A stretch of DNA of 64,000 nucleotides, taken from Fragilaria crotonensis (taxonomy: Eukaryota; Bacillariophyta; Fragilariophyceae; Fragilariales; Fragilariaceae). Positions 1-45,942 of the stretch are shown piece after piece (the first letter of the stretch is position 1; each line of letters opens with the position of its first letter). Position numbers and translations under genes: made by a program. The notes beneath the pieces were generated by a model. The model saw only the letters and a list, made by a program, of their open reading frames with translations. It ran no database searches and was not told the origin of the DNA. The stretch lies in the NCBI GenBank assembly GCA_022925895.1, contig JAKSYS010000322.1:1-64000 (forward strand). The letters are read 5' to 3'.

Positions 1-218
1 GGACGGTGGGCATAAAGGCAACGGCTTGCGTCCAAGAAGGACGGAATCCATTCGCAGTGTAGTGTGCGACTAATGCCAAAGGATAAATGTATTGAGAAAG
101 GTTCGACGTTGTAGGACTGAGCCCTTCAGAAGTCTGACAGATAACGTAGATAGTTGGTACCGGCGTGATAGAAGGCATACGTGATGAGTCCCATCACGAG
201 CCATGTTCCGGTGAGCAT
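1..218 (-). pseudogene. Decayed fragment of a fatty-acid desaturase gene
   Basis: This stretch aligns by eye along its whole length to 4313-4550, the N-terminal part of the desaturase gene at 3594-4700, in the same orientation. It has many substitutions and lacks about 20 bases that the complete copy has near 4465-4490. Similarity stops at about 218. The fragment starts at the window edge, so it may continue to the left. It keeps no open frame of useful length. It looks like a partial, relic duplicate about 4.3 kb from its parent; direction of copying is inferred from its decay. Confidence 0.85.
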
Positions 219-960
219 ACATCCAGCTTCATGAGTAAATTCACCGCAACTCATTCCATCCATGCACAAAAATGATACCGGTATTCTCGTGGAAATAATC
301 TGCATGAATGGTCAATGGAATAGCAGCTCAAGATGCAAGACCAGCTGCAGTGTTTCGGTAATCGGAAGAGTCAAACGGCATGCAATTCCCTGGCAACCTC
401 ATGATTAGAGGTTGGAAAACAAAACAACCACAAACTGACTCCGGCAACAAGAATCAAGAATGTCAGATGTAAACGAACGAAACCATCTTATCCAGAACAG
501 CAGTTAGTTGCAATCGATGACCAAGATGCGACACAATAGTCTGAGCGTGCGGCATCGCGTGTATCCGATACCAACAAGAATGGTCGCTGTGTTGCGTCAG
601 CTCTGAATCAGCGATTGCACCGCTACAACTTTCAGTGAAAATTTGCCGTGTTTGCTGTCGTCCGAGTTGTGTTCAAAAATACATCGCCAGCAAAGGATCG
701 AACGCATTTGCACACTCGAATAATGTCAGAAAACGCAGAACTGTTTTCCTTGACTTCAGGCAGGCCCGTCATACTGGTGACGTGCGGTATTCACTACAGC
801 GTAATCCTTGGGCTTTGAAAACATAATGAGGCGGATGCCTCATTGTCTTTTGATTGGCAAGTCCGCCATGGAACTAAGCGCATCCTTGTTCCTCAATCGA
901 AGTTTGGATATTTGATGTAAGATTCCACCGTCGCCTGTCACGTGGTTGGGACTGATCAGA
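219..960. other. Spacer without a recognisable gene
   Basis: No convincing gene seen. A 63-codon frame at 635-826 has no ATG context or domain I recognise and looks random. Confidence 0.5.
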
Positions 961-2307
961 TCATGGAGATAGCATCGCCGAGCGGGTTGATGGGCTTCCA
1001 CTGTTCTGGTCCATGATTTGTTGGTCTACCACCATGTAGGTCTCGGGATCCCACATCGGTTGGCGACAATTTGGGCACTCATCATGGTCGCATTGCAACC
1101 AATTCATGATGCACTCACGATGATAAACATGTGTGCATAAACTGGTCACAGTGTCATCCTCAGGTACTGCAAGAACACGAGAATTTGATTAAGAATTTTG
1201 TTGACAGTTGAGGCTTCAACACAAAAAATATGACGCTCTTCCTCCTGCTTACCAAGAAATTCCATGCAAATGGAGCACGTTGTAGCTTCTGCAGGGTCCT
1301 CGTAGAATACGTATTGTTTCGACTGAGAGTCATACTTTAAGCTACGCCCGCTAGTGGTCCTTCTCCGACGTCTCCTTCCGGCTTGTGAGTCGAAAAGAGG
1401 GTATGCGTCAGAAGTCAGATGAAAGCATCAACCTTGGACAAGGTAGTAGTAGACGCAGCCCGCCTAGCAACACGAGCGACACATGCGCCTTACCTTGCCT
1501 TCGTCGGGAAACAGTACCGCCAAAACTAGTGCGCGTCGTGCCATTGCCTGTTTTTGCAACGTTAAGGTCGATGGCGTTCCTTGAATGTGTCGACCGTTTC
1601 TCAGTGCCTGTAAACGCATGGCGCGAGTTTGGTTTCTATCGTTTATTGCGACTCTGCAGACGACGAGTGCGAAGAGACCCAAAGGAGCAAGAATTGAGAC
1701 AACAATAATTAGAACATGGTCGGTATGGGCTTCTGTTGGTGCTCGAACTGGCGGGGTGCTGGAACTGGGAAGATATTGGTTTGGAATTGGATCAAATGAG
1801 GGTGTGGACCCTGGACGGAAACCAAAAATAGGTTCGGAATTGTTTGGCGACTGGAGCAGCAACAGCTGCTGGTGCAGAAGTTGGAACAGAAGCACTGGGA
1901 TGACGAAAGGGTGCGCCAACTGGGGGTGAAGTGGTTAACGCAGGGGACACAAACCAGGTCTTTACTTGTCTCTGGGAGGAGTAACCTGATCCATGTAGGG
2001 AATCAGAGTACATATTCGTCCTCTGGGTAGGCCTACTTTCAGTGTTCTCCTGACAATCGCATGTCTCAAAAATCAATGAAGAAAGGGCAGAGCACTCTTC
2101 GCTTGGAATCAACCCTTCAAGTCCGGCGAACTCGAGATCGCTGCACGTATATTGATTTCCAACCTGCTCTGGAAAGCGGACTTTCGGGATGGCAGACGGA
2201 CTTCCAACATGGTATCCATCGCCACAAACTGAACAGCCTCGTGCGGAAGCGACACTGACCAGGAGTGATCCAGCCAAAAAACCGCGTAGAGTTGCTTGAC
2301 GCATCAT
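961..2307 (-). CDS. Secreted/transmembrane RING-H2 finger protein (putative E3 ligase), four exons
   Basis: The start chosen is the ATG pair at 2307. A signal peptide (hydrophobic run ending ASA) leads into a Cys-rich ectodomain beginning CSVCGDGY. A Ser/Pro/Thr-rich linker, one membrane segment (VLIIVVSILAPLGLFALVV) and a basic cytosolic stretch follow. The C-terminal RING-H2 has the order CSIC, C-T-H, H, C, CPNC, so it should bind two zincs and recruit an E2. The ectodomain/TM/RING order suggests a membrane-anchored ubiquitin ligase on the secretory route; substrate unknown. The last intron is clear (1167-1252, phase 1, joining EFL to VPEDD). The first intron has its donor at 1965; three in-phase AG acceptors are possible. 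The middle intron (donor GTAAGG near 1460, acceptor near 1380) does not keep frame exactly: one base seems to be missing or a site is misassigned. Confidence 0.75.
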
Positions 2308-3593
2308 CGTTACAGTACCTGATAGCTCGAAGTGGGTAAAATGGGCATACATACAGAACACTCTCAGACAAGCAAGATGGGCCAGAGGCCATATGGAATT
2401 TTTCGTTAATCTGTGCTATGCGAAGGGTTGATCGTTGATATATTTGTCTGTTCTTCAGTTTAGTTTTGGATACATTAATAATGTCATACTGGAATGCATC
2501 GTGTAGGAAGCTACGCGAGGGATTCACCTGGCAGCTGGCAGTAGATCTGAGAATAATTTTCAGTGCTTTGAAGATTCAAGGTCTATCCGTAGAATTGTAC
2601 AGCACGCCGGATCCTTAACACGGCGACTCGTGCTGTGAACGACGACGAGTAACAGTAACCCAAATTTGAAATTGGACATAGAAAAACGAAGTCCGACGAC
2701 GAGTTGCAATGTTGCGATTCGTGGTGACAATTGTGACAATGCTCTCTCTTGCTAAAACTCGTATTTTGTCTACCGGTAGTAGTACAAGACCGTACAAGCC
2801 CTGTTTGCCCGAATCATCGATCCTGCCTCCAAGTACAAGTACCCTCTCAAGTTTTATAGCCAGGAGGATGTGTTGTTAGTCCACATATGAAATCCTGGTA
2901 TGGTCCCTTCCAATATAGATACATCAAATGATAAACATCGTTTTCAAGAGTCTACATTTTGCGCCTTCCGTCGTGTGATTCTTACCTCTGCCAATTGTAG
3001 ATACACGTTGGTTGGTGGCAATGTTCTGGTCGTCGACCCACCCAGTGAAGAGGACATACATTCTTGTGCTGGTTTGTACGGAGTTCTGTCATGTCTGAGA
3101 TAACGTAGGTAGATTCTCACAAAGTTGATGTATCCCATTGTTGCCAAGGGGTGTGTATACTTGTGTGTGGTGCCGCCGTTTTGTCATTGCACTGAATTCG
3201 TGAAATGTCCGTAGGTGCAGCGTTGATGAATGACTGAGAGTGATTGATGCACACATTTTGTGCTTCGCATGATATGGGCAGTCAGTTATCGCTCACAACC
3301 CACGACGGGTGTAAGACAGGGACAACAGTCGAAAGTTTTGTCTCGAAACCTCTCGTCCATTCCTGTTTCCAGTCAGTTGTATGGATTGCAAATTCATCAA
3401 AATCAATCGTCCGGTCTGACAGTCCACAAGGGCGCTACGAAAAGTTGAAAAAGTGAAGTTACATTTAAGGGATGAACATGGTCCACAATAACGTTTGTGT
3501 CCATAGATTAACGTGTTCGGTGGAAAGCCAAAACTATGGGGCACAACCATAATCGTTGTTGCGCGGGGAGCATCCTGCATCCAAATTAATCAT
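2308..3593. other. Spacer without a recognisable gene
   Basis: Only short overlapping frames on both strands, none with domains or splice support. It holds the 5' flank of the RING gene and the 3' flank of the desaturase gene. Confidence 0.5.
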
Positions 3594-4700
3594 CTACCTG
3601 AGATCCCAAACTAATCCCAATGCTTCCATCCAGCTAAGACTGATCCAATCTGTTGTGAAATGTGTGAGTGACATGTCGATTCAAGCAATTTCAACGAGAA
3701 TGAGAAAAGGAGAACTTACAAGCGAGGTCCCAATCATTTCGTCGGCTCTTGGCAGGGGATTTGTGGTGCAAATCATGTTCACTCTCTCACCCACAATGAG
3801 GGCCAAGAGGCGAGGATTGTCAACGCTCTTGCACCTCTTGGTATCACTGATAGGGTGATACTCCACATTGAACAAGAGAGTGATCAAACGGCAGACAAGC
3901 ATAGGAAGGAGCAAGCTGTAGGCAATAAAGGAACGCTCGGTACCAACGTGTTCCAAATAGGTAAATGCCAGAGCGACGGGCATCAAATAACACTTGTCCA
4001 AGAAGAAGAGTTCTGGAACCAACAGTCTCTTGTCCACAAATTGCATGTCTCGTTCCTTGAGATTGATGGGATTCATCGTCCATCCGCAAAAGGCGTACAA
4101 GAACCCCTGCTGCACGACTGAATGAGGATCCTTGGGCTGATCGCAATGATGGTGGTGACGAACATGCTTCGCAGCCCACCAAAGACATCCGCCCTGGTAG
4201 GCAAAAGTCGAGACTAATGCCACCACGAACTGTCCAAATCGAGTTGTGGTAAAGGCGGCGTGGGAGAAGTAACGATGCAAGCAGACACTCATGGGAACTC
4301 CAATGAGAAAGAGGACGGTAGGCATAAAGGCAACGGCTTGCGTCCAAGAAGGACGGAATCCATTCGCAGTGAAGTTCGCGACCAATGCCAAAGGATAAAT
4401 GTATTGAGAAAGATTCAACGTTGCAGGACTGAACTCTTCAGAAATCTGACAGATAACGTAGATAGCCAACCAGTAGTAGGAATCGAAGACACCGGCGTGG
4501 TAGAAGGCATACGTGATAAGTCCCATCACGAGCCAAGTTCCGGTGAGTTCGCCGATCGGAATGTTGATGAAAGGCACTGGATTCGGTGGACCCTTGAGCG
4601 AAGACGGCGCATTCAATGATTTAGAGCTCGTTTCGTCTTTGCTTGTCAAGGTGGGAACGACGACATCTGCCTGAGATCCGCTTCGGGGAAGAGGAGCCAT
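3594..4700 (-). CDS. Membrane fatty-acid desaturase, acyl-CoA delta-9 type, with one frame slip
   Basis: A di-iron membrane desaturase that would insert a double bond in a fatty acyl chain, probably in the ER. Exon 1 (4700-3720) carries the first histidine box HRYFSH (residues 142-147) and the second, HVRHH (179-183), between hydrophobic segments. The third box, HDLHH, lies at 3763-3777 but in another frame, entered just after the GAGAGAG run at 3782-3788. That new frame runs to a good donor (intron 3650-3719, 70 nt) and exon 2 (3649-3594), ending in the family-like tail MEALGLVWDLR. So the gene is whole except for one slip before the last metal-binding box; the spliced length is 3n+2. It is either a very young pseudogene or a one-base consensus error. 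Without the slip it would be about 345 residues, normal for the family. The exact double-bond position is not shown by sequence. Confidence 0.85.
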
Positions 4701-6349
4701 GATTGTTCAATGCGGATCGTGCACAATTGGAAAATCAAATATGTAAAACATGGGTGGGTAGTCAGGAGGTTGTGGGTTCGGTTGTGTTGCCTTCGTTGAT
4801 ACCACGTGGCTGTAGCTCCGACGTCGTACTTATTCTACATACGATGTCCGACATCCTTTACGAGGATTGTAGTAGTGCTTTCCCGTAGACTCATTCGTGA
4901 TGGCATTGCTCCTCGTTGTACTCGTACTACCGGTAGTACTTGCTGCGGTATATGCACAGGTAGTGTATGAGCACACCAGTATAAGCTGTACTACTTTTTT
5001 CATTCACTTTTGGGCCGTACGCGTTTACAACATGCGAGAAGTACATACTGGCGTCAAATCAGGTACTAGTAGTACCTCGTACTGGGAACTACTGTACGTG
5101 CATTTCAAAAAAAAAACAGCCGAATCATGAAGACATAACAAACACGACTCGTTCGCCCCAAACATGTGTATGCTTTACGTCGTACTTAGTTTGTATGATA
5201 ATACAGTCCTACCACTACCGTTGTTTTTTCTTTACAGAACCATCTGTCAAACCTCAAACATCACCAGTGGCCGAGACGTTTACACTTCTTGTGTTCGCAT
5301 CCACGAAATCAACTTCTGATGTTTCATATCCTCAATCGTACATTCTCAAAACAAGTCGAACCAAGGGTGACATATTCCCTTAAATGGAAGTCGCGGGTTG
5401 CTGTCCCCAGAAACCGGGGTGGTGTATGTTGAAGGCCATCAAGGTGATACGACCGATTACCAGTTGTAGGTCCGGAGGTCGCACTGTCTTGGCCCCCCTA
5501 TTCTATTAATGCAATCCAAAACGCTCCACGCACGCCTTGATACAACGTTCGCACATTATAATATGTAGAAGTGGATCGACCAGAAAATGCGCTCTCATTT
5601 ACACAGAGCTTACAGATACAGTACTGCATCCATTTCAAGTCGCCAAGGATTTCAAGGTCCAATGCCCCTTGGACATCCCAGTCACTACCTGTACATGTAG
5701 TGACAAGAGACTCAGCTGAAGTGCGCCAAAAAGGGTGCAAATCTACAGTTCATTCACTTTTTCTACGAAATCGCATCGGTGTTCCTCGCACCTGGAGCAT
5801 CCTTCAGGGCGTGGGAGTGCAAAACGAAAATCCATGACATGGTGAAGTTAGATTCGCTGCCTCTTTTTGTATCTTGTCCACATCTATAGACATGGTAGTA
5901 CTTGTAGTACATGTAGCATTATTATGCATACGTATAAAACGTATAAAATAATGCATCACACAGATATGATCATAAAATCCTCATCCATGTACTCAGGTAC
6001 TACTACTGTAGTCTACTCCGGAGAACATAACTACATACTCTCTACTAGTAGAGAGAATGACAAAAATGAAACTATCTATTGCAGCAAATCCTGATTGCTC
6101 GGCGTTGTCAGCAGAGACAGGAACGCCATTGGGGTTGTTGACCGTTGTAAGTCAGTTTGTGCCGTTGGCGCCGATGAACGAGTACCACACTGTGCGGGGC
6201 GAGTCGTATGTTTGCGGCTGAGGGCGGTGTGCGCACATTGCCGATGATGATCGATGCCACTGTGGGGCGAGTCGATGTGCGGGCGTGATGTGGAAGCGCA
6301 ACTGCTGTGACCGGTCTGAATGCAGACGTGCGCGGCCACCAACAGAAAG
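4701..6349. other. Spacer rich in GTAC motifs
   Basis: No gene recognised. It holds several GTAC and CTAGTAG-like motifs (4905-5100, 5895-6050). The 6076-6415 frames on the minus strand overlap the tRNA, lack an ATG and are judged spurious. Confidence 0.5.
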
Positions 6350-6353
6350 AAAA
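6350..6353 (-). terminator. RNA polymerase III terminator of the tRNA gene
   Basis: A run of four T on the minus strand, 15 nt past the 3' end of the tRNA, as expected for Pol III termination. Confidence 0.6.
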
Positions 6354-6368
6354 TAGATAGTCGCAAGA

Positions 6369-6441
6369 GCCCAATCACGGAGTCGAACCATGGACCTTGT
6401 CATTACTAATGACATGCTCTAACCAACTGAGCTAATTGGGC
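6369..6441 (-). tRNA. tRNA-Thr (anticodon AGT)
   Basis: The 73-nt minus strand folds into a full cloverleaf. The 7-bp acceptor stem GCCCAAT/ATTGGGC is perfect. The D stem is GCTC/GAGC, the anticodon stem TGTCA/TGACA with loop TTAGTAA, and the T stem CATGG/CCGTG (one G-T pair) with loop TTCGACT. The loop places AGT at positions 34-36, which reads threonine codons. No intron is present and the CCA is not encoded, as usual in eukaryotes. Confidence 0.95.
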
Positions 6442-6700
6442 ACTGTACTGTAATCGAATGGCCCAACATGCAATAAAAATGCTGTGATGTACAGTAGTAC
6501 TTGTACTTCTGCAACAGTACACAACGGGAATTGCGTTCCTGTTACTATCATCATATTGATTATCCGATCGTGGTTGGTATGATACCTAGCCGAGACAACA
6601 ACATCTCGTCGATGTCAAATCCGATCTCTAGAGGCCGTGGATTGAGAGTTTAGAGTAAAAGGACTTCTGGCGTGCTTTGGAAAATTTAATCATAGCAACA

Positions 6701-26826: not shown

Positions 26827-29800
26827 TTAGAAGAGCTTATACGAGGTGGGGCTGCAAATCACTCTCCAAGCCTTGTCATATTCGACCAACATCGTGTACC
26901 CCAGCATTTCCAGTGCTTCCGCCCGTTTGGTCAAAATATCAGCCTTTGCCAGAGGATATAGGCCTCCCTTACAATCCTTTTCGAGGAATGAGTTCAAAAG
27001 CTTGATCGTTGTGCCATATCGCTTGCATCTCTTCTCGCGCTCCAGCTGAACGACTGCAAACTTATCCTCCTTACCAAGGACTACCCACTTCTTCAATTCC
27101 GTCAAGGCTTGGTCAAACTCGACTCCCTTGTCCAAATCAGCAAACGCTTTAGCCTTACGAGCCCAAGCTTCACACAGTGCCATCTTCTTGTCGGTCATTT
27201 CCTTCCGGACCCGAACTGCGGTTGCATCATCCTTGTCGTGATTCTTCCCAAAATGGAGGGCCAATTCATCTTCCGATACTTGCGTAATTATTTTGTCGGC
27301 AGCGTCAATAACTTTCTGCAGCTGCTCCATACGTTTCTTCTCTTGGTCGACATGTTTCAAACCTTCCAGCAACAATGGGAGGTGATTGCAGTACTCCTTC
27401 TCCAACGATGAATAGACTTCTTCAAACTTCCCAGCATCCTTTTCTTCCTTTGTCAGCTTCCCCAGGTACTCGATTTTGCAAATGCGAACAGCTTCTTCTA
27501 ACTTTTCCTCAACCGTTCGTTCATCCTTCTCCTCTGGTGTCGAGATCGGGTCCTTGGCTTTCGGTGGTTTCGACGCTAGCATGTACGTAATAGGGTAGCC
27601 ACCGGGTCTTTTGCCATCTCCGGGCAATGTCGTATCACTTGATTCGAATGTCACACATCCAGTTAGGATGTCACCAGCTTTGTACCCAGAAGGAAGCTTC
27701 GAACTTGGTGGTTCCGCAAAGAAAACTGCACAGCTGCACCCCTTACGCAACCCCCGTTTCTGGAATGTGCCGTTCCCTAACATCATCGATTCTTTTGACG
27801 AATACGCAGAGAGCGCGAGCTCCTTCTCGAGCTTACGCTCGATCCATATAGGCACAGTCTTTAGTTTCTCTAGCATGTCAGGATTGTCGTGTCGTACTTG
27901 CATTCGAACAGTGACATTTCCCTTTGGCACCTTGATCTCGCTGGGCCACGCGTCAGCGACCCCAAGGTACTTTTTCTCACTATCAAAGAGCAGCATTAAC
28001 TGTGACTCGTAGGCCGACTCGTAAAGGAAGCCTTGCAGAGCTGGAGCGCGTGGCGTCACTGACCCTGCCTCCTCTTGCGTGAACTCGTAAGTCAAAATTA
28101 ATTCATAAATGCGTTTGTTCGTAGACGGAATCACATCCCGTTCATCAGGAAGGGGAGAAATGGAGCAATCACCGTCGGATTTGGGACGTATAGGAGTACT
28201 CCAGGCATTCAATTTGGCAGATGGGCTGATGTATTCGTTCAGAAGCTGACTTGACACACGAACGCAGGCTCCCCCGCCACCCGCCGTGAGTTCAATGTGA
28301 CTTGGTGATGCAAGAACTCCACGGAATTCAACCTGCACGTTGACCTTCGTGGCTCCAATTGCACTCCAATTGCGTGCAACGGCGAGCTCGCATGTGACAC
28401 CCCCATGAACTTTCAGTGACGCCACCTTTTTTTCGTTTTGAGTCAAGTTGTAGTACTTTCGAGACTCTGCTTGGCTGTACGGTGCGTGTTCCAGCAATTG
28501 AACTGCATGCAAGACGATCATTCTCGGCGACATATCACTCGCATCTGCTCGTGTATCCTGAAGCGTAACGTCCATCCATGCCGCACCCAAGGGAACGCTT
28601 AAAAGAATCGCTTCACTTCACTCGGTGCAAATTCCAAATCTCCGAATACCAGCTGTGTGTCTTCCTTCATCGGTTTTGCCACTGTGATGGGAACAGAGAA
28701 GACAACACCTCGGTCAGGTCGGTCGGTGTCGAACGCCGAAATCTTGGCTGTGTGCAGTCCTGATTCTAAATTGGTTGGATCGACATCAATCCCAAACGAC
28801 CTCCCATTGTGCATGAGCATGAAGAAGTCAGGTACCTGCACCCACGGTGCTGTGCTTTCGAGCCGAAACTTGATTTCCAAATTGCACTTGCGAACTTGAG
28901 TTTCCTCTTCCATATCGTCCATGCGATAGAGAGGATCGACATGGACGAGGTAGTTTTGTTTCACTTGGCACTCGTCAGGCTGTCGTAGATAGACACCTCG
29001 GGGTTTGCCCGCTTTGTTTTCGAGATAAATGTCGAAGTGCAAGTCTTCCGTCTCACACTCTATGTTTGATTGGAGGTACTCCCACGCTTTTTCAACTTGG
29101 ATCATGCCGCATCCCTGTTGCAAGGGCGACAAACTATCCATCAAATGAGCTGTATTCTCCAAAGCCTTCTGAATGCGACTGGGTGTATATGATATTCCCT
29201 GAGCTTTGCACGCGGATAACAATAGGGCGATACAGCCAGTTGCATGTGGACTGCTCATGGACGTGCCATTCATCAGCTGAGACTTTTGCAAGCAGCAATT
29301 GGGAACAGATGTTATGGCACCACCGGGGGCCGTTAGGTTTACTCCGTTGTCTCCATCGTGAGTGGGGCCGACGGACGACCACGTAAATGTTGTCCCAGGT
29401 TCGTTACCTTCGAGTCGTAGCGAGTAGTCAGCTTGTCGCATCGCGGGTGATACATATGCCGCGATTCCAAGGCAAGGTGTGGACGAACCACCAGGGGCTC
29501 CGACAGTCGATAGAGCTGGACCATTGTTCCCCGCCGAAGCAACAAATGTAATGTTGTGTTTGTATACCAACTCTCGCGCAATTTCCACAAAACGACCAGT
29601 GTTCGCCACGCTGCATCCTTCGCCATAGGATAAATTAATGACATCCACTTTCAAGCGAATCGCCTCCAACATGGCTCGGACCAACGAGGCGCCAGTCTCC
29701 ATGCTCCCCAACCTGGAGTCCCCAATCTTGAAGGAAATGAGCTTGGCACCCGGCGCCACACCACATTCGTTGTGAGCTGCGATACCCGCAACATGAGATG

Positions 29801-30686
29801 CATGGGCACCAGCATCAGCACAAACGTTGAGAATCGTGCCGTTGTTGTAAAAGTTGACGCAATAATTGTACTGATCTACTGTGGAGAAGGTTGCAAACTC
29901 CCTTTCAATGTCGAACGAGGTCATGGCCTTGGTGAAAACCCCTGTATCTGATAGCGCTGCGCGATAGTTCGTTCCATCGTAGAAGACAACGCAGTCGTAC
30001 AGTGGACCAGGATCTTCGTGCTTCGCTTGTAGTACTATCAAACGATTTTCTAATTCTTGACGTTCCAGGACTTGTTCAGGATTGGGCTTGGAGATGGCCT
30101 TGTGTTCAGCGAGTTTGTGACGAAGGTCTGCGATCTTGGGTGATAGGGATTGCATAAGCAGTTGCTTGCGATGTTCCTTGAGGCGCGATACAAGTTTTTT
30201 GGGAAAGAGATCGTATGCTCGAAGGATACCAAGCCTTACGGGACCCTTGACACCGTTCTTGTCACCATTCGCATCTTCTGTCTTTTCAGATAGCTTCTCT
30301 TGAATCTTGCTACTGTTCACATCTTCACGCTTTTCCTCAGTCTCCTCTTTTCGCGGAAACTCTTGTAGCTTCCAGTCTCCAGGAAGGACTAATGTTTTCC
30401 CCGAGAGTCCCTCCACAGTCCACACACTTAGCTCGCCGTCTTTCTCCAAAAGAACGGCCTGTTTCTCAGTTTCAACGCTAATATCCCCGCTCCCCGTACA
30501 ATCTACAACACCGATAAGTTTGGGGCTGCCATCTAGCTGATTGTACAACCCGGCAGCACCAGGATCGACGCCCGTATCCAAAATGCCAATCGTAACGTCC
30601 TTGCCATTGTGGTACTTTTGAACAAATTGTAAGGCCTGCGTTTCCCGACGAGGATTCAAGTCATCGATTGGGAAAGGAGTAGACAT
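26827..30686 (-). CDS. TPP2: Tripeptidyl peptidase II (giant subtilisin-like serine protease), one frame slip
   Basis: A cytosolic exopeptidase that removes tripeptides from peptides released by the proteasome. The first frame (30686-28599) has the subtilase triad: Asp37 in ILDTGVDPG, His near residue 296 in GAHASHVAGIAA, and Ser near 474 in NGTSMSSPHATG, with a long insertion between Asp and His as is typical of TPP II. It ends at SEVKRFF. The remaining 588 residues (28590-26827) carry the C-terminal TPP II domains: LHAVQLLEHAPY, RIYELILTYEFTQ, and a long helical tail. The two frames meet at a run of four T (28601-28604); with one more T they read SEVKRFFLSVPLG. Overall length is 3n+2, giving about 1286 aa, normal for the family. 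The start is the ATG at 30686; no upstream ATG is in frame. No introns seen. Confidence 0.92.
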
Positions 30687-31551
30687 GAAACTGAGCGATA
30701 ATGAAGTACGTAAAGAGGGGGCTTCGTCTCCAAGTGGTCTGAGATCGAAGTGTCTGATGTGAGAGATTGGTGACGCTGCAGTAAGATCTTCGGACTTGCG
30801 AGTTATGCAAGACAATACCACCCGTAGTCCCGCTACCTGGTAGTGTACTATGATACTGCAAGTTCCGGTAATATCCGTTCACGCACCTCTCCTTTGACCA
30901 ATTTATGTCATAATTTTCCGACAGAATCACCGCTCTTCGCTGGTGTCAGGACAGAACTTATCTGTACTACAGTAGTCTAATACAGTAACGCAGACGGATG
31001 TACTGTGTACTGTAGTCTGTAGTATTAAAAGTGCGGCTATGACGCTGAAATCTCTCTTGTACAAATGACAAATGGCTCACGGATTGGGAACTTGCTTTGA
31101 GTCGTGAGCCCCTCCAGCATCCACGCCGGTGGGTTCCCCAACCCCCAACCCTCCGATGTAGCAGCAAGTGCACAAGGATTTGAAGCATGCATATGCCATA
31201 TGACACATAATTCCAGTTTCGAATGGCCTACGAACTCGATCATGTCTCTCCGACCCCAAACGAAAGGAGGATACACGCTGGTGTTGCGAATTGCCCATCC
31301 TCCAAAATTTCAACGGCATAGGGGCTTCCGCGTAGGGAGCGATTGGCAATGACTAATCTTGAATACCAGTCCGCCTCCTGTTCAGCTTGGCCTGTTGCCA
31401 TTCTGAAGGCATAACTGGAGTATGGGAGCTAGAATTTACGACGTGCGGATACATTTGTTCCGAATTTTTATCGACGTGATGGAATGATGCTCCATCGCAA
31501 GGAGCACTTATTCTCTATGCACCCACCAAAATCCGCATCGCATATCTCAAG
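30687..31551. other. Upstream region between divergent TPP II and helicase genes
   Basis: Several short minus-strand frames overlap each other near 30967-31349 and none has domains. No gene supported. Confidence 0.45.
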
Positions 31552-33426
31552 ATGTTGGAACTGCGTCCCTACCAGGCCAGAATGGTCAACACAATCATGA
31601 ATCAGAATGCCATTTGCAAGATGCCGACTGGATCCGGCAAAACTATAGTTGCCGCAGCCATTGTCAAGCAGAAAATCGATATCAATGATGATCTCAAATG
31701 TCTCATACTGGTTCCGACACGTGAGTTAGTCAATCAACAAGCATTAGTCATGGAGCGGTGGTGTCCAGGATCAATAATTGGGAGATACCATGGTGGACTT
31801 TCCAGCGACCAAGGCACCTTCCATGCTCTCGTATCCTCACCTGCCGCCTTTCATGCATTGCTTGCAAACAATTCTACACAATATGCTTGGGAATCCTTCT
31901 CGTTGGTTGTCTTCGATGAGGTCCACCACGTACTCAAGGCGCATCCCTATCGCCTCATTGCCAAGAGTTTATCGACGTGGCATCGGGAAAATATTGGAAG
32001 AAAAGTACAGATACTTGGCCTATCTGCCTCTCTCACATACAATGTCAGTGAAGTAAAGATCAAGAATACACTTAATCAACTCTGCACAGATCTTGCGATC
32101 GAAATAATGTTGTCGCCATCGATGGAGGAATTGGAAGCTGATGGGTATACTCCTCAGCATGGTCGCAACGTCGAAGTCCTATCGGCAAGGCATTCCCCGA
32201 TAGGCGTGTTGCCTCAAACTTCGAGGACACCGCATTTAATGCGTGAAATCTTCATGAAACGAATCGAGGAAGGCAGTGCCACTGTCATCGCTGCAGACGT
32301 AATGCGAATTGTTGCCCTTTTGGAAGAACAGGCAAGTACGCTATTCCCCGCTTTTCAGTCTCCATTACCAAAAAGCACGCTATCAAAATGGGAAGGGTAC
32401 GCCAATGAATTGAGCAAAATACACACGTTAACAGAAGGACTCTTCGCTTCCCTGGAATGCTGGTACGTGGCTGCGCGGGTCCTTGTACAAACCTGGGAGG
32501 AAGAGGATCAGATCGTTCTGCATTGGCTGAAGATGAACAATGCCATAGCGCGACTTCCAACAGCATTGCAACAGGCGCCGAGCGTAGTTCGTATGCAACT
32601 TCAAATGGAAAACGAGCACCACCAAAGCAAACTATCATCTTTGCAAAGCCAGATCATGTTAAAGAAGGAGCAATTCGGGCCTCAATTTAAGTGCATTGTC
32701 TTCGTGCAGCAGCGTTTCACAGCAATGGTTGTGGCGAACTATTTGAATCAAATCGACGGGACTCTTAACGCACGATTCGTAGCATCCCGTGGATCAAGTG
32801 TTACACCAAGCATCAAGCTGACTGGTCAAGAAGTTGCCGCCACAATCGAATCCTTCAAAGCCGGCCGGAGCTTAGTACTTGTTGCCACATCGGTTATTGA
32901 AGAAGGATTCGATGTTCCTCATGCAAATGTGGTGATACTTTATGACCATTTGAAGGACTCAGTGGAATTGTGTCAACGCTTCGGCCGGGCTCGCACCACA
33001 AAGTGTGCAATTGTGGTGATGGTGGAACGACAAGACAGGCCTCTCGTGTTTCTGGAAAGGATTCGACTGGAACAAGACCAGATAGTACAAAGTTATGATC
33101 CTTCGAAATCCGTAGTCATGGATCCGGAAGTCGAAAGTGCTGTACAGCATCATCGGGAGCGGGCGGCCTTTCAGGCAGTTCTGAGTGACTGGGCAAAGTG
33201 CATAGACACCCCTTTGTTGGCTTTCAATGAATACGTAATAAAAACGAAGGCTGCAGTTGACGAAAAAATTGATTTTTCTACGAACGGCAAGTTCACTTGC
33301 GAACTCACGTATACGAGCATCCTTCAGAAAATCATCTCCAAAGCGACAGCAGGCAACAAGAAGGGCGCCAAGATTTTGTGCTGCAAGGATATACTATTGA
33401 GACTCAGGGACGGAATCCATCACTGA
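31552..33426 (+). CDS. Dicer/RIG-I-class dsRNA helicase ending in a dsRBD/DUF283-like domain
   Basis: A single-exon 624-aa protein. Superfamily 2 helicase motifs are present in order: Walker A MPTGSGKT (24-31), LVPTREL, the DEVH box (122-125), LSASL, ATSVIEEGFDVP, and motif VI QRFGRART (475-482). Between the two RecA-like lobes sits an alpha-helical stretch (about 225-380), as in the Hel2i insertion of Dicer and RIG-I-like proteins. The last 70 residues (about 555-620) resemble a double-stranded RNA-binding fold or the Dicer DUF283: KFTCELTYTSILQ and NKKGAKILCCKDILLRL. There is no PAZ or RNase III domain before the stop. It looks like the N-terminal half of a Dicer standing alone and may serve RNA silencing or sensing of viral dsRNA; that role is inference. 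It lies between TPP II and an ankyrin gene, which gives no functional hint. Confidence 0.82.
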   Translation: MLELRPYQARMVNTIMNQNAICKMPTGSGKTIVAAAIVKQKIDINDDLKCLILVPTRELVNQQALVMERWCPGSIIGRYHGGLSSDQGTFHALVSSPAAFHALLANNSTQYAWESFSLVVFDEVHHVLKAHPYRLIAKSLSTWHRENIGRKVQILGLSASLTYNVSEVKIKNTLNQLCTDLAIEIMLSPSMEELEADGYTPQHGRNVEVLSARHSPIGVLPQTSRTPHLMREIFMKRIEEGSATVIAADVMRIVALLEEQASTLFPAFQSPLPKSTLSKWEGYANELSKIHTLTEGLFASLECWYVAARVLVQTWEEEDQIVLHWLKMNNAIARLPTALQQAPSVVRMQLQMENEHHQSKLSSLQSQIMLKKEQFGPQFKCIVFVQQRFTAMVVANYLNQIDGTLNARFVASRGSSVTPSIKLTGQEVAATIESFKAGRSLVLVATSVIEEGFDVPHANVVILYDHLKDSVELCQRFGRARTTKCAIVVMVERQDRPLVFLERIRLEQDQIVQSYDPSKSVVMDPEVESAVQHHRERAAFQAVLSDWAKCIDTPLLAFNEYVIKTKAAVDEKIDFSTNGKFTCELTYTSILQKIISKATAGNKKGAKILCCKDILLRLRDGIHH

Positions 33427-33569: not shown

Positions 33570-35210
33570 CTAACCGCGACTCGAGAAATCTAACTTGTTT
33601 TGCACTTGCTGGATAGCAACAGTCAGCCGCTCGCACTCATTTTTGGCTTCGTGCACCTCCGATTGAGCTCGATGTAAGTTTTCACGGGCGTTCCGTTCCA
33701 ATTCGCCAGCGATCTCGATAGTTGAGGACAAGGTGACATGGCTAATTTTCAAATCCTGTAGTTGCTTCAAGTAAACAATCCTTTGCGAACCTTTGCTGCT
33801 TGCTGTTGAGGCTTCTAACTCCTGAATGGCACTGGTTAATTCGTCACTTTCTTTGCGTGCTCCTTGAACCTCGCGCCTAGACAGATCCAGATCATTAATC
33901 GCTTGTCGCTCCATCTCAGACGCAATTTCAAACGAAGTTGAAGCCATGACGTGCTTAATCCTGAGCTCCTGACACTCCTTTATGAGATCGATTCGCTCTG
34001 AGCCTGATGAGTTACTTAACTCGCTCGACGACTTCGGGGGGCTTAACAGCACCTGCGGTGGTTGGCTTCCAATTTTGCGATTCAGACTTCGCTGCAACGT
34101 GATGCCTTCGAGCAGTTCGTCTGGCGATAACGACACCAAGTCTTGCATTGCCTCAAGGTTCGCTAGCGACGAGAAAGAATCCTCGTTATCTGCATAGAGT
34201 TGTTGGAGAATTGCCGAAGCGATCTTCTTCCTCATAGTTTGGGGCGTGGCATCTTCGTTCGATGAAGCACTTTCCCGTCTCCGTGCTTTGCTCTTTTTCT
34301 TCTTCTTCTTTTGAGCCATGTAATCTGAAATGATACGATCAATATCCTCCAAAAAAGGGAGTGCATGAAGAGGGGTAGTCCTACGTTCAGTCCTCGTGAA
34401 AAATACCCGGCGGCGAGGCATCACAGAACGGAGCTCCTTTTCGTTCAAGAACGTGATCCAGTCGCCCCACGTCTCCTTCGGCGCATAGTCTAGAGGCATA
34501 GAGCCACGCGCGTCAGCCACGAACAGCAAGTCAGGATCCTGTTGTATGATGAAGTCGACGAGATCAAACCAGGGTTCCGCTGAGTGACACCCAAAGTGGA
34601 GCGGCGTCCTTCCTTGCTCATCTTGTACCCACAGACTTACAGACGCCTCCTTCACAAGAAAAGTAACGACATCCAGGTATCCCCTCCGACAGGCAACATG
34701 CAACAGTGTGTCCCCAAAGGGACTGGAAGTCTGAAGCGGTCGCCCTTCCGCATGCCACGCTCGAAGAGTGTCGATATCCTTGTTATGTATAGCCCCAAGT
34801 ACGTCATTGTCGAAGTGGTCCATTTGCTCCGGAGTACACTTGTGAAAGAGATCCCTGTTCTCAAGAGCCATGATAGAGCAAGGAGCGCAGCCTTCCGGCG
34901 TCATTCTCCCCAGCGCCTGCATGAGATATGCAGCCGGAGCTGTGATAGGTGAAGTGGAAGAACCATTCGAAAGAGGCTGTGATGTCGTTGATATGGTCGA
35001 GGACGTCGTGGGCAAGGTGTTCTCGGTGATGCTTGAGTGGTTCCAGAGATCGGAGTCGAGATTTTCTCCCCCAGGAATGGATGCGAGACTTTTATACGAC
35101 TCTTCCATCATTACGATCTTGACAATATTCTCCGACAACAAAGCAGCCTTAGAAACAACGTCAACATCAACGTTCATATCACAGGGCGCGTTAATCACAT
35201 TATTGTTCAT
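33570..35210 (-). CDS. Ankyrin-repeat coiled-coil protein, paralogue A
   Basis: A 546-aa single-exon protein. After a Ser/Thr-rich N-terminus, a conserved core (about residues 90-305) begins AYLMQALGRMTPEGCAP and contains ankyrin units (FGDTLLHVACRRGYLDVVTF, GRTPLHFGCHSAEPWFDLVD). It ends in the segment RRRVFFTRTERRTTPLHALP and a poly-lysine tract that could act as a nuclear signal. The C-terminal third contains two long helices of similar pattern, IKHVMASTSFEIASEME and ISHVTLSSTIEIAGELE, which look like an internally duplicated coiled coil. The family seems specific to diatoms; function unknown, with protein binding as the general expectation. The core is nearly identical to paralogue B at 38285-40234. 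Confidence 0.85.
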   Translation of the reverse strand: MNNNVINAPCDMNVDVDVVSKAALLSENIVKIVMMEESYKSLASIPGGENLDSDLWNHSSITENTLPTTSSTISTTSQPLSNGSSTSPITAPAAYLMQALGRMTPEGCAPCSIMALENRDLFHKCTPEQMDHFDNDVLGAIHNKDIDTLRAWHAEGRPLQTSSPFGDTLLHVACRRGYLDVVTFLVKEASVSLWVQDEQGRTPLHFGCHSAEPWFDLVDFIIQQDPDLLFVADARGSMPLDYAPKETWGDWITFLNEKELRSVMPRRRVFFTRTERRTTPLHALPFLEDIDRIISDYMAQKKKKKKSKARRRESASSNEDATPQTMRKKIASAILQQLYADNEDSFSSLANLEAMQDLVSLSPDELLEGITLQRSLNRKIGSQPPQVLLSPPKSSSELSNSSGSERIDLIKECQELRIKHVMASTSFEIASEMERQAINDLDLSRREVQGARKESDELTSAIQELEASTASSKGSQRIVYLKQLQDLKISHVTLSSTIEIAGELERNARENLHRAQSEVHEAKNECERLTVAIQQVQNKLDFSSRG

Positions 35211-38284: not shown

Positions 38285-40234
38285 CTAGTCACATTGCTGC
38301 TCATCCCTCGTCGGCAAGCGGAAAAGTCGCATAGCGCTACCAATGCTTTGTCGACGCTTCGGAATTCCCAGGGATCGAGGAGCAGCGCCAGTCTTGTGTA
38401 TTGCGCCCAAAATGACACCCGACGCTCCTTGAGTCCATCCAGCCTGTGAATGTGGCAAGTGCAACTGCAAGTAGCAGTCGTAGTTCCCCGATCCTCCGCA
38501 GTGGCAGGAAATGTGGTTTGCAACCAATCTCTCATCACTTTCGAACGATGCTGCCAGCCGTTTGCATAAGCATAAGTCACTTCTGTCGTTATTTTGTATG
38601 CTTTGACACGTATCCCCATCAGTATCAGATTCAACCTCCGCCCGATCGCCAGCAATCACACAACTGATGTCATCTGCCGCAAGAAGTTTTGCTTGCCCAG
38701 CCTCACCGGCGTCTGCCATTGACCGGCCTTCCTCGGCAACTTGATTTCGTGTTTTTGAACCATGGAGGAGACCCGAATCCTCATTTCCATATGGAGTAGA
38801 CGTCAATTGTTCCAATTTCTTTTGCACTTCATTAATTTCTTTGGATAGCCGATCGCACTCCTCGCTGGCATCATTTGTACGTTGCTGGATGCCTTGACAT
38901 TGTTGTTCCATTTCGAGGGCGATCTCGATCTCTGTGGAAGCAATGATGTGCTGAATTCTGAGCTCTCTCAATAGCTTGAGAAGCTCAATTCTATCGCCAG
39001 CGCTGATTGACATGGTTGACGACGGATGCACGTCATGCGGAAGTGCTGCCGACGTTGATGACCTTGAATTTACGGCCAAAGAAGCGTTCATTGCAATATT
39101 TGTTGGTGCCTCGATTTCATGTTCACTCGAATCCAGGGCAACATGAGGCAAATGGTTGAAGCTCTGCAACACCTCCAGACTCAGAGGAGACGAGACAGAA
39201 CCTTCGCCGAAGAATCGCAGGTTCTCAAGGACCACCGAGTCAATCCTCTTCCTAATTCTCCGACTAGAGGCATCGTCACTGGAACTTGCTACGTCGTAAT
39301 TTTGAATCGACAATCGCTTTTTCTTTTTCTTCTTTTGAGCCATGTAGTCTGAAATGATACGATCAATGTCCTCCAAAAAAGGGAGTGCATGAAGAGGGGT
39401 AGTCCTACGTTCACTCCTCGTGAAAAATACCCGGCGACGAGGCATCACAGAACGGAGCTCCTTTTCGTTCAAGAACGTGATCCAGTCGCCCCACGTCTCC
39501 TTCGGCGCATAGTCTAGAGGCATGGAGCCACGCGCGTCGGCCACGAACAGCAAGTCAGGATCCTGTTGTATGATGAAGTCCACGAGATCAAACGAGGGTT
39601 CCGCTGAGTGACAACCAAAGTGGAGCGGCGTCCTTCCTTGCTCATCTTGTACCCACAGACTCACAGACGCCTCCTTCACAAGAAAAGTGACGACATCCAG
39701 GTCTCCCCTCCGACAGGCAATATGCAACAGTGTGTCCCCAAAAGGACTGGAAGTCTGAAGCGGTCGCCCTTCCGCAAGCCACACTCGAAGAGTGTCGATG
39801 TCCTTGTTGCGTATAGCCTCAAGTGCGTCGTTGTCGAAGTGGTCCATTTGCTCCGGAGTACACATGTGAAAGAGATCCCTGTTCTCAAGAGCCATGATAG
39901 AGCGTGGAGCGCAGCCCTCCGGCGTCATCCTCCCCAGCGCCTGCATGAGATAAGCAGCGGGAGATTGCCTGGCTGACTCCGACACCGCGGATGCAGCAAC
40001 CGATACAGCAATAGATGCGGCACATGTTGATGCCAACGTCGGCAAGGTCTGGCTACTCTCGCCTCTAAAATAGTCATCCAATTTCCCCCTCTGCGGGGCT
40101 GATGAGTGTTGTCTACCAATATCGTTCGTCGTTAACACCTTCACGATGCTCTCCGACACGAGAGCAGCCTTTTCAGCTGCAACGTGGACGGCATCACTCT
40201 CGACGCGCTGGGTCTTGCCATTGTTGGCACTCAT
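38285..40234 (-). CDS. Ankyrin-repeat coiled-coil protein, paralogue B
   Basis: A 649-aa single-exon protein, same strand and layout as paralogue A. The N-terminal 85 residues share only a short helix (EKAALVSESIVKVL against SKAALLSENIVKIV). The core (nucleotides about 39318-39965) is roughly 95-96% identical at DNA level to 34295-34940, including the MAQKKKKKK end. Behind it the sequences diverge: one coiled-coil unit remains (IQHIIASTEIEIALEME), followed by a different, Cys- and Ser-rich C-terminus of about 150 residues without recognisable domains. Start ATG at 40234. Role unknown, as for paralogue A. Confidence 0.83.
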   Translation of the reverse strand: MSANNGKTQRVESDAVHVAAEKAALVSESIVKVLTTNDIGRQHSSAPQRGKLDDYFRGESSQTLPTLASTCAASIAVSVAASAVSESARQSPAAYLMQALGRMTPEGCAPRSIMALENRDLFHMCTPEQMDHFDNDALEAIRNKDIDTLRVWLAEGRPLQTSSPFGDTLLHIACRRGDLDVVTFLVKEASVSLWVQDEQGRTPLHFGCHSAEPSFDLVDFIIQQDPDLLFVADARGSMPLDYAPKETWGDWITFLNEKELRSVMPRRRVFFTRSERRTTPLHALPFLEDIDRIISDYMAQKKKKKKRLSIQNYDVASSSDDASSRRIRKRIDSVVLENLRFFGEGSVSSPLSLEVLQSFNHLPHVALDSSEHEIEAPTNIAMNASLAVNSRSSTSAALPHDVHPSSTMSISAGDRIELLKLLRELRIQHIIASTEIEIALEMEQQCQGIQQRTNDASEECDRLSKEINEVQKKLEQLTSTPYGNEDSGLLHGSKTRNQVAEEGRSMADAGEAGQAKLLAADDISCVIAGDRAEVESDTDGDTCQSIQNNDRSDLCLCKRLAASFESDERLVANHISCHCGGSGNYDCYLQLHLPHSQAGWTQGASGVILGAIHKTGAAPRSLGIPKRRQSIGSAMRLFRLPTRDEQQCD

Positions 40235-43359: not shown

Positions 43360-45942
43360 CTATGTGATCACATCTTCAGTTCGTAGAGATTCGACGGTTT
43401 CCACTCGTGCGATTTCTTCAAAGCAAGCAACAACTAGACCGAGAGCAACCAGAAAAGCGAGCCAGGTTGCATAAAAGAGATCACCCACGCTCTGTCCAGG
43501 TCCTCCAATGCCTGTTATCAGTGCTACCGGAGGTCCAAACAGAAGAACCAGAAATACTGACGCTACCATTTCCACGTCTGCCATCAACCGGCCCTTGGCA
43601 TTCGGACAGGTGGTAGTGATAAGGACGCGCACCGCAGCAATCAAGCCCGATATAAGCATGCCAGCAAAGGCGACCGCCATCGAGATGACCGTTCGAGAGC
43701 AAAATGTAACTGCGCCAGATCTGATATAGTCAACAGTGCACACGTCGGAAATGTTGCGCCACACGTGGAAGCCGGCTGCAAGGATGACGAAGCAAACCTT
43801 ACATATTCCCGCCCAAATGGCAGTCACGTAGTCTTTGTCGTTAAGGCCAAGGTAATTCTTGGCGTAGGACATCATCAGCCAACCAGCGGTAAATACGGAT
43901 GCCCATGTGAAGTAATAAAGGTTCGCAATTTGAATCTCGCCAATGCCATTCACGGCCCATGATGATTCGGAATGCATTGTGATAACCAGTGTTGCAATGC
44001 ACACGCCACAAGTCAGGACTGAAAGGAGACCTCCGAGCCACATTTGAGACACTATTCGGTAGGTGCTGGTCTTCAAACAAAGCAAAAATAGGCAGGCACA
44101 TATCACAGCGACGATTGACGGAGCGGAAATGACATAACGCTGCTCAATCCTCAGCGCGTCAACCTGATACATTGCGGCATCAAATGCAGAAGCAGAACAC
44201 ACTGTCGACGCTATGCCAAGTAAAAGGTATGCTCGCCTCCTTTGTGATTGTTCGCTCGCAAAAGCTTCAGCATTCTTCAACGAGTCCGCTTCGGAGCATG
44301 CTTCGCTTCTCTTTGACGACGTGGACGGGGTTAAGGTGGGAGGGTCATAGTCACCTGGTTTAGTGCTCTGGAGTTGGGATTCGTCATCAATGTTACAGAG
44401 TTCCTCTAAACATCCGAGGCATATGCGCAGACATAGCAAAAAACTGATCCAGTTTGCGTAGTAAAGATTGCCCACAGTGGCAGCAGGTCCGTGAACAGCA
44501 GTGGCGACAACAGCGTTCAAACCCAACATGTTGGAGAGAATGACAGCCAAAATGAATTCGTACTGAAGCGGAAGAAATGTTCTTCGGAACGAACCGTGGA
44601 CGTTTGAAGGAAATCCCAATCTTGGGGCAGTCACGTCGTCCCTGCGTTCGGCCACTCGCGCGGCATCACGTCTTGCCAACATGTGAGTGACAATGGCTCC
44701 AAAAGAAAGACATGCCGCAATAATTCCAGATAAGAGTGAAAACGCTGTTCTGGCACATAAACTTGAAGGTATATCACTGCCTACAAGAACAGAGCAGACA
44801 TCTCGGTACTTGACATCAGGGTCAATGCTGGCGGCTGTAGGAATCAAGACTTCCTGCCAAATGTGCACTGAAGAAGCCATGACGAGGAGAGTCGCAAGGA
44901 AGGTGGATGTCCAAATTCCTGTCCGAGTGCGTAGACGATACAGCGATTGGTACCACATGGCCCGAGATTCTCTGTAAGTTTGCAGTTGGAAGACTGTGAG
45001 TGATGACAGCATTGCTTCGACGTCTCCAACATGAGCTGATTCCGTCATGCGCTCCATTTGTTTCCTTCCGTATTGAAGCGCAAGATCCCCAAATGCTTGA
45101 TACGCCAAAGCCATGGACAGCCCCAAGCTGATCCAGGTAGTATAGTACAGGTTTGCGTTGTCACCTACGTGACCCATGGAGTCTACTGCTGCGAGCGACT
45201 GGTATGGATTCGTCTGAACACTCCTTGGTCGCAGCATAATAGCGACAATCCCATAAACCCAAGCGGCAAGCATGGCCATCATGATAAAGGAAAGCTTGAT
45301 GAGTACAGTATAGTGTCGACTTTGACCAGAGTCGACCGAACCAAGTGTTCTCATATGACGTCGCAATAGGCAAAGGCCCAGCACGCCGCAAATTGATATG
45401 GTGCTGCCGACTGGAATGGCAACTCGTTGGAATATTTGTCGGCAGACTGCTTCTCCCTCCGATCGATCCGAATCGTTCGCATTGGACGCGTCATTGTCGG
45501 CAATGAACTGGTCGTAGACGTCGTAGGCATTGGCGGAAAGGCATTGGTGGTTGGCATCAAAGGCTGCACAGCACGCCAATAATGTCGATAACAGTAATGC
45601 TGCGAGAAGTCGTTGCATGTGGGTGAAGTCAGGTTCGATATCCTCCACCATGTAGGGTGGCATCAAGCGAAAGTTGGAAGCATGCGAGTGAATGACAGAG
45701 TGATTGGCAGAGGTCAGAAGCACTTTCTTGTCTTCGAAGAAGGACTGAGTGATCGAAAGCCAAGAAAGGGACGATTCAATGCGTCCATGTGAGGGTTGCC
45801 ATTTTTCGCATTCTGGTGCTAACGATCCGACTGCTGGGATAGCTGTTTGACGTAGTGACATCTCCAACTGGATCGCGATGAGATAAATGATGAATGAGAT
45901 TTTAGGGGAAGAAATGGTGCCTTGTACTAAATACAGTAGCAT
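43360..45942 (-). CDS. Multi-pass membrane protein built of four repeated modules
   Basis: The frame opens with ATG 45942 (860 aa). A second ATG at 45618 (MQRLLAALLLSTLLACCAAF) starts an excellent signal peptide and may be the real start, giving 752 aa. Four modules follow, each with about four membrane segments and each marked by a related motif: NLYYTTWISLGLSMAL, NLYYANWISFLLCLRI, NLYYFTWASVFTAGWL and DLFYATWLAFLVALGL. Each motif is preceded by a cysteine-bearing segment and a helix. About 16 membrane spans are expected. I do not recognise the family; the fourfold repeat of a four-helix unit recalls channels or transporters, but no ion or substrate signature is visible. It diverges from the glycosyltransferase gene. 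Confidence 0.75.
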   Translation of the reverse strand: MLLYLVQGTISSPKISFIIYLIAIQLEMSLRQTAIPAVGSLAPECEKWQPSHGRIESSLSWLSITQSFFEDKKVLLTSANHSVIHSHASNFRLMPPYMVEDIEPDFTHMQRLLAALLLSTLLACCAAFDANHQCLSANAYDVYDQFIADNDASNANDSDRSEGEAVCRQIFQRVAIPVGSTISICGVLGLCLLRRHMRTLGSVDSGQSRHYTVLIKLSFIMMAMLAAWVYGIVAIMLRPRSVQTNPYQSLAAVDSMGHVGDNANLYYTTWISLGLSMALAYQAFGDLALQYGRKQMERMTESAHVGDVEAMLSSLTVFQLQTYRESRAMWYQSLYRLRTRTGIWTSTFLATLLVMASSVHIWQEVLIPTAASIDPDVKYRDVCSVLVGSDIPSSLCARTAFSLLSGIIAACLSFGAIVTHMLARRDAARVAERRDDVTAPRLGFPSNVHGSFRRTFLPLQYEFILAVILSNMLGLNAVVATAVHGPAATVGNLYYANWISFLLCLRICLGCLEELCNIDDESQLQSTKPGDYDPPTLTPSTSSKRSEACSEADSLKNAEAFASEQSQRRRAYLLLGIASTVCSASAFDAAMYQVDALRIEQRYVISAPSIVAVICACLFLLCLKTSTYRIVSQMWLGGLLSVLTCGVCIATLVITMHSESSWAVNGIGEIQIANLYYFTWASVFTAGWLMMSYAKNYLGLNDKDYVTAIWAGICKVCFVILAAGFHVWRNISDVCTVDYIRSGAVTFCSRTVISMAVAFAGMLISGLIAAVRVLITTTCPNAKGRLMADVEMVASVFLVLLFGPPVALITGIGGPGQSVGDLFYATWLAFLVALGLVVACFEEIARVETVESLRTEDVIT

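Follow-up and report, generated by a model that had tools for sequence, protein, structure and literature searches.

Does a diatom carry the helicase half of a Dicer as a gene of its own? The question is raised by a locus of Fragilaria crotonensis (assembly GCA_022925895.1) on contig JAKSYS010000322.1, labelled C250, of which positions 1-64,000 of the forward strand were analyzed (the window). The open reading frame (ORF) at 31552-33426 (+) encodes a protein of 624 amino acids (aa), P0001. The original prediction took it for a Dicer front half on its own, a helicase followed by a dsRBD/DUF283-like domain (dsRBD, double-stranded RNA-binding domain). Our data indicate that P0001 is most likely complete in itself: a stand-alone superfamily 2 (SF2) helicase from the Dicer/RIG-I group that carries a dsRBD at its C terminus, rather than a fragment of one split Dicer. 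We put the probability that it belongs to this group at about 0.85.

An intact gene encodes a complete helicase core

The P0001 gene is real and intact, and apparently has a single exon. One frame runs open from the ATG at 31552 to the stop at 33426; upstream of the ATG it stays open for 24 codons without a further ATG, and the protein begins with the helicase itself (MLELRPYQ). The ORF is not a product of chance, because the longest stop-to-stop frame in simulated sequences with the dinucleotide make-up of the window (n=30, 64 kb each) did not exceed 242 aa, as against 624 aa, and because both helicase domains score over the Pfam cut-off.

Lobe 1 (Pfam DEAD, residues 5-167, E = 1e-23; 31564-32052, +) was modeled by AlphaFold2 at a per-block pLDDT of mostly 81-94, with two blocks at 62. 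It holds motif I, PTGSGKT (residues 25-31; 31624-31644, +), and motif II, DEVH (residues 122-125; 31915-31926, +), a form shared by 1 of the 25 archaeal sequences in the alignment. Lobe 2 (Helicase_C, residues 376-480, E = 5.2e-16; 32677-32991, +) holds motif V, EEGFD (residues 450-454), and leads into motif VI, QRFGRAR (residues 475-481; 32974-32994, +). Motif VI is of the type found in Dicer and RIG-I-like receptors (RLRs): it lacks the extra residue of Hef and FANCM, which all 25 archaeal Hef-type rows carry. A mainly helical insertion separates the lobes at about residues 200-360 (32149-32631, +; limits approximate). It is seen in the low-confidence full-length model (built from an alignment with the 25 archaeal rows; mean pLDDT 62.2, pTM 0.52), and the structural alignments of this model to RIG-I, MDA5, LGP2, DRH-1 and Dicer-2, which cover about residues 1-508, span the region. 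Thus the SF2 motifs and the helical inter-lobe insertion that had been read from the sequence were both recovered, and the frame does end without a nuclease domain.

The C-terminal segment is probably a dsRBD

A scan of the whole of P0001 places the Pfam family dsrm at residues 560-618 with an E value of 0.014, under the Pfam cut-off. When the last 95 residues were scanned alone, the match covered residues 559-618 (33226-33405, +) and positions 6-66 of the 66 in the profile, with an E value of 3.8e-4 and 21.4 bits, just under the cut-off of 23. Shuffled versions of the tail gave dsrm in 0 of 9 cases and other families in 3 of 9 (E values of 0.008-0.15). The segment KKGAK (residues 603-607; 33358-33372, +) fits KKxAK, the RNA-contact pattern of dsRBDs that bind double-stranded RNA (dsRNA). 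Structure prediction did not confirm the alpha-beta-beta-beta-alpha fold of a dsRBD: in both AlphaFold2 models, of full-length P0001 and of the tail alone (single-sequence input, pLDDT 44.5), the segment is all helix at low confidence. A phmmer search of the tail against the PDB returned no dsRBD chain and one irrelevant match (E = 0.98), and the tail has no meaningful similarity to the DUF283 domain of the organism's own Dicer or to the C12 dsRBD. Judging from these sequence matches, the C terminus of P0001 is probably a dsRBD.

The Pfam list for P0001, at E values up to 10, contains no Dicer_dimer (DUF283), PAZ, Ribonuclease_3 or RIG-I C-terminal family. No nuclease domain was matched by Pfam, and no signalling domain was found in the protein. 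After residue 500 there are cysteines at 550, 583, 610 and 611, and the whole protein is free of CxxC, unlike a zinc-binding tail. Of the predicted dsRBD/DUF283-like tail the dsRBD half is thus probable and the DUF283 half is not supported, and the tail is, as foreseen, not the zinc-binding domain of an RLR.

P0001 probably lies near Dicer and RLR helicases

Among the best 60 of 136 PDB sequence matches, the ancestral Dicer helicase came first (102.9 bits), followed by LGP2 (83.3), DCL1 (78.5), Dicer-2 (77.1), DRH (76.2) and RIG-I (71.1); Hef (69.0) and FANCM (43.6) stood lower. The top five Foldseek matches were DRH-1, ancestral Dicer, DRH-1 again, LGP2 and RIG-I. We also built a tree of 19 rows, among them 10 archaeal ones taken from the 25 in alignment A3; human and mouse sequences were left out, RIG-I and MDA5 are absent, and Dicer-2 and DRH are represented by lobe 1 (31% and 37% of columns). 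P0001, on a long branch, groups with Dicers and RLR proteins apart from Hef/FANCM with a support of 92/97, not starred. The approximately unbiased (AU) test rejected P0001 as sister to the Dicer helicase of its own genome (p = 0.0085) and as sister to its own FANCM (p = 0.029). Groupings of P0001 with the Dicers (p = 0.117) and with LGP2 and DRH (p = 0.117, in a tree lacking RIG-I and MDA5) were not rejected, and neither was recovered in the tree. These sequence comparisons suggest that the core lies near the Dicer and RLR side.

In the wide sense, the Dicer/RLR group is marked by an SF2 core, an inserted helical domain and a motif VI with GRAR, and P0001 has all three. It does not have the two RNase III domains and the DUF283 that follow the helicase in a Dicer (by Pfam scan and on contig C250), nor the zinc-binding C-terminal domain of an RLR, nor the GRTGR-type motif VI and the grouping with FANCM that characterize Hef/FANCM.

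Searches of viral and genome contigs brought no nearer relative. P0001 alone gave 4 pattern matches and 0 confirmed relatives in viral contigs. Alignment A2, which consists of P0001, a Dicer and a FANCM and whose searches lean to that family, matched 79 distant helicases in viral contigs and, in genome contigs, yielded the best 80 of 227 considered here; nearly all matches have archaeal titles and are of the Hef type, and none is a close relative. Matches in 17 phage records had identities below 60% and covered no more than 32%, and none of them is close.

The genome retains a Dicer with its own helicase

We searched the genome assembly (62.1 Mb, 881 contigs) for P0001 and for silencing genes. 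P0001 has matches at six places and no others: its own locus, C544, C438, C244 (FANCM), C712 and C162. RNase III and Argonaute genes do co-occur in the genome, which the original prediction had proposed looking for. The five RNase III matches lie on C544, C658 and C437; on C250, an exon-by-exon search for sequence matches, in which very short exons could be missed, found none, and so no downstream RNase III exons that could be joined to P0001.

On C544 (1-8000), the frame 1-5247 (-) encodes a Dicer with DEAD, Helicase_C, Dicer_dimer and two RNase III domains, both of which retain the RNase III signatures. The frame reaches past the contig end, so that a C-terminal dsRBD cannot be judged; PAZ was not matched at E values up to 1, and Dicer_dimer was found nowhere else in the genome. 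A DNA methyltransferase fusion, as in Fragilariopsis cylindrus, was considered for this Dicer and rejected, the upstream ORF of 496 aa having no methylase match at E values up to 5.

A second Dicer-like protein, helicase-less, is encoded on C658 (218500-228400) at 1431-6590 (+), in a frame of 1720 aa with two RNase III matches. Its PAZ match is weak (7.5e-4, under the cut-off), and neither a helicase nor Dicer_dimer was matched. The protein has a long repetitive N-terminal part and, ahead of the weak PAZ, a hydrophobic stretch at about residues 965-1042 of the 1715-residue product; from this composition it is possibly a membrane-bound Dicer. The first signature of its second RNase III domain is altered.

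Argonaute/Piwi matches lie on C239 and C335, and matches to RNA-dependent RNA polymerase (RdRP) on four contigs, C335, C239, C199 and C34. At C335:23466-40076 and C239:7002-23819 the Piwi matches stand within about 2 kb of one RdRP match and some 11-13 kb from another; the two arrangements are mirrored copies with the same Piwi scores. This is an Argonaute-RdRP cluster, perhaps present as two haplotypes. At C438:80236-80511 lies a fragment of a P0001-like helicase, 47-49% identical (47% over 95 columns) and without motifs V and VI, to judge by which it is probably a dead copy of the window helicase.

Because the genome retains a Dicer with its own helicase, the AU test rejects sisterhood with that Dicer and the tail matches dsRBD and not DUF283, we see no sign of a split Dicer, and the description of P0001 as a Dicer front half is not supported. 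P0001 may nevertheless act in trans, since the genome encodes a helicase-less Dicer-like protein.

Alternative explanations for P0001

Could P0001 be a DNA-repair helicase of the Hef/FANCM type? The data disfavour that reading, and we consider it very improbable. In its favour, and weighing against our assignment, the structural aligner ranked Hef first. Yet the genome has a separate FANCM (408.6 bits to human FANCM), from which the AU test parts P0001, motif VI lacks the Hef/FANCM residue and no nuclease domain is matched; the grouping of the core with Hef/FANCM for which the original prediction had allowed was not seen. Even more remote is the idea that the gene is decaying, as the broken copy on C438 has done with the loss of motifs V and VI. 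The long branch of P0001 would fit decay, but the window copy keeps its full-length frame and its motifs.

The other explanations concern partners, and each is unlikely. Foremost among them, the helicase-less double-RNase III protein on C658 would have P0001 as its helicase subunit and receive dsRNA from it in trans. That protein, with its two RNase III domains, weak PAZ and no helicase or Dicer_dimer, is a candidate partner, and Thalassiosira pseudonana is likewise described as having both a helicase-dsRBD protein and one that combines RNase III with PAZ, for which joint action was suggested (PMC3155517). However, the same genome encodes a Dicer that includes a helicase, Phaeodactylum tricornutum dices while the accounts of it cited here report no helicase-dsRBD protein, and the hydrophobic stretch means that P0001 and the C658 protein may differ in location. 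Slightly less probable is a dsRNA sensor or regulator resembling LGP2 or DRH, or a damper of RNA interference (RNAi), working without a Dicer partner; in Dictyostelium, HelF is reported to damp RNAi. P0001 begins at the helicase, as LGP2 does, LGP2 and DRH are among its best sequence matches (best 60 of 136) and fold matches, and stand-alone dsRBD helicases such as HelF have been described (PMC4894637). Against this, P0001 has no RLR-type zinc tail and no signalling domain was found in it, and the dsRBD of HelF sits at the opposite end. We give distinctly less credit to P0001 as the helicase partner of an RdRP. Such a partner is DRH-3 in Caenorhabditis elegans, and fused helicase-RdRPs occur in oomycetes and Dictyostelium. 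Since none of the four contigs with RdRP matches gave a P0001 match, the organism's own RdRPs seem to lack a fused helicase, which favours a separate one; the DEVH form of motif II is reported for the Dictyostelium helicase-RdRPs, but its presence in an archaeal row makes it a weak sign. No more credible is the idea that diatoms have a third lineage of Dicer/RIG-I-type helicases, specific to them and distinct from both Dicer and RLR, whose member here would pair with a helicase-less, possibly membrane-bound Dicer, so that one cell would contain a two-part dicing system as well as a one-piece Dicer.

A proposed role and its relation to known proteins

We return to P0001 as a complete stand-alone helicase with a dsRBD. 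Taking its frame, domain order, intact catalytic motifs, missing nuclease and genomic company as observed, it is most likely an ATP-driven translocase that would bind dsRNA and move on it. Both lobes, together with the helical insertion, would close around dsRNA, and the dsRBD would hold the duplex in place of the DUF283 of Dicer or the C-terminal domain of an RLR; in fly Dicer-2, helicase and DUF283 are described as forming a ring around dsRNA (PMC10328071). ATP hydrolysis would then drive P0001 along the dsRNA, or strip it. In a genome with RNase III, Argonaute/Piwi and RdRP matches, P0001 may act in trans for diatom silencing, preparing or clearing dsRNA made by RdRP or by viruses; we rate a silencing role in trans at somewhat short of even odds.

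The closest known layout is that of T. pseudonana 20605, described as having DEAD and HELICc domains, a dsRBD and a weak match to PAZ, with no DUF283 or RNase III in that description, and proposed to work with the RNase III+PAZ protein of the same species (PMC3155517); a review likewise gives a DEADc/HELICASEc protein with a C-terminal dsRBD in T. pseudonana (PMC3145265). Compared by description, P0001 shares DEAD, HELICc, a C-terminal dsRBD (just under the Pfam cut-off) and the absence of RNase III and DUF283, and differs in having no PAZ match. Both the layout and the trans-acting idea are thus already published for T. pseudonana, and P0001 adds another case of a protein that has been little studied and of which the literature searched yielded no later survey. 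The occurrence of this layout in a second diatom points to a lineage and not an oddity. The T. pseudonana genome reportedly has no canonical Dicer, as was said in 2011 of diatoms in general (PMC3145265), whereas F. crotonensis has a Dicer with DUF283 and its own helicase, so P0001 cannot be just a substitute for a Dicer helicase that was lost. This raises the question of what a free dsRNA helicase does in a cell that already dices.

Other systems resemble P0001 in part. With the RLRs and DRH-1, and LGP2 above all, it shares a helicase core with an insertion, but its tail is dsRBD-like where theirs is zinc-binding. Its best PDB sequence match is to the Dicer helicase module, yet it has no DUF283, PAZ or RNase III match. 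HelF, according to its description, is also a stand-alone DExD helicase with one dsRBD, but an N-terminal one (residues 2-76; PMC4894637). The F. cylindrus Dicer-like protein 242149 also has a helicase followed by a dsRBD; unlike P0001, it is described as starting with a DNA methyltransferase and ending with two RNase III domains (PMC4156623). The P. tricornutum Dicer is described as combining a dsRBD with two RNase III domains (PMC4247016) and its products as small RNAs of 26-31 nucleotides (PMC11910954), in an account that calls diatom silencing effectors diversified.

Other features of the window and genome

The diatom origin of the DNA, which the original prediction had assumed, agrees with the silicic acid transporters encoded in the genome (19 matches). 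Some are concatenated, three in one frame of 1456 aa and two in one of 1008 aa (C97:29749-33762 and C771:21664-24330); concatenated transporters have been described in Synedra (PMC6114903). In the window, an ORF of 860 aa at 43363-45942 (-) has no Pfam match at E values up to 0.001. Tripeptidyl peptidase II is spread over two adjoining ORFs, 26830-28590 and 28602-30821 (-), the break being an intron, a frameshift or an assembly error. Downstream of P0001, 143 bases separate its stop from that of a convergent ankyrin-repeat ORF (33570-35210, -). A second ankyrin-repeat ORF (38288-40234, -) lies about 3 kb away; the repeats occupy matching residue positions in both (about 140-225), and the two are likely tandem duplicates.
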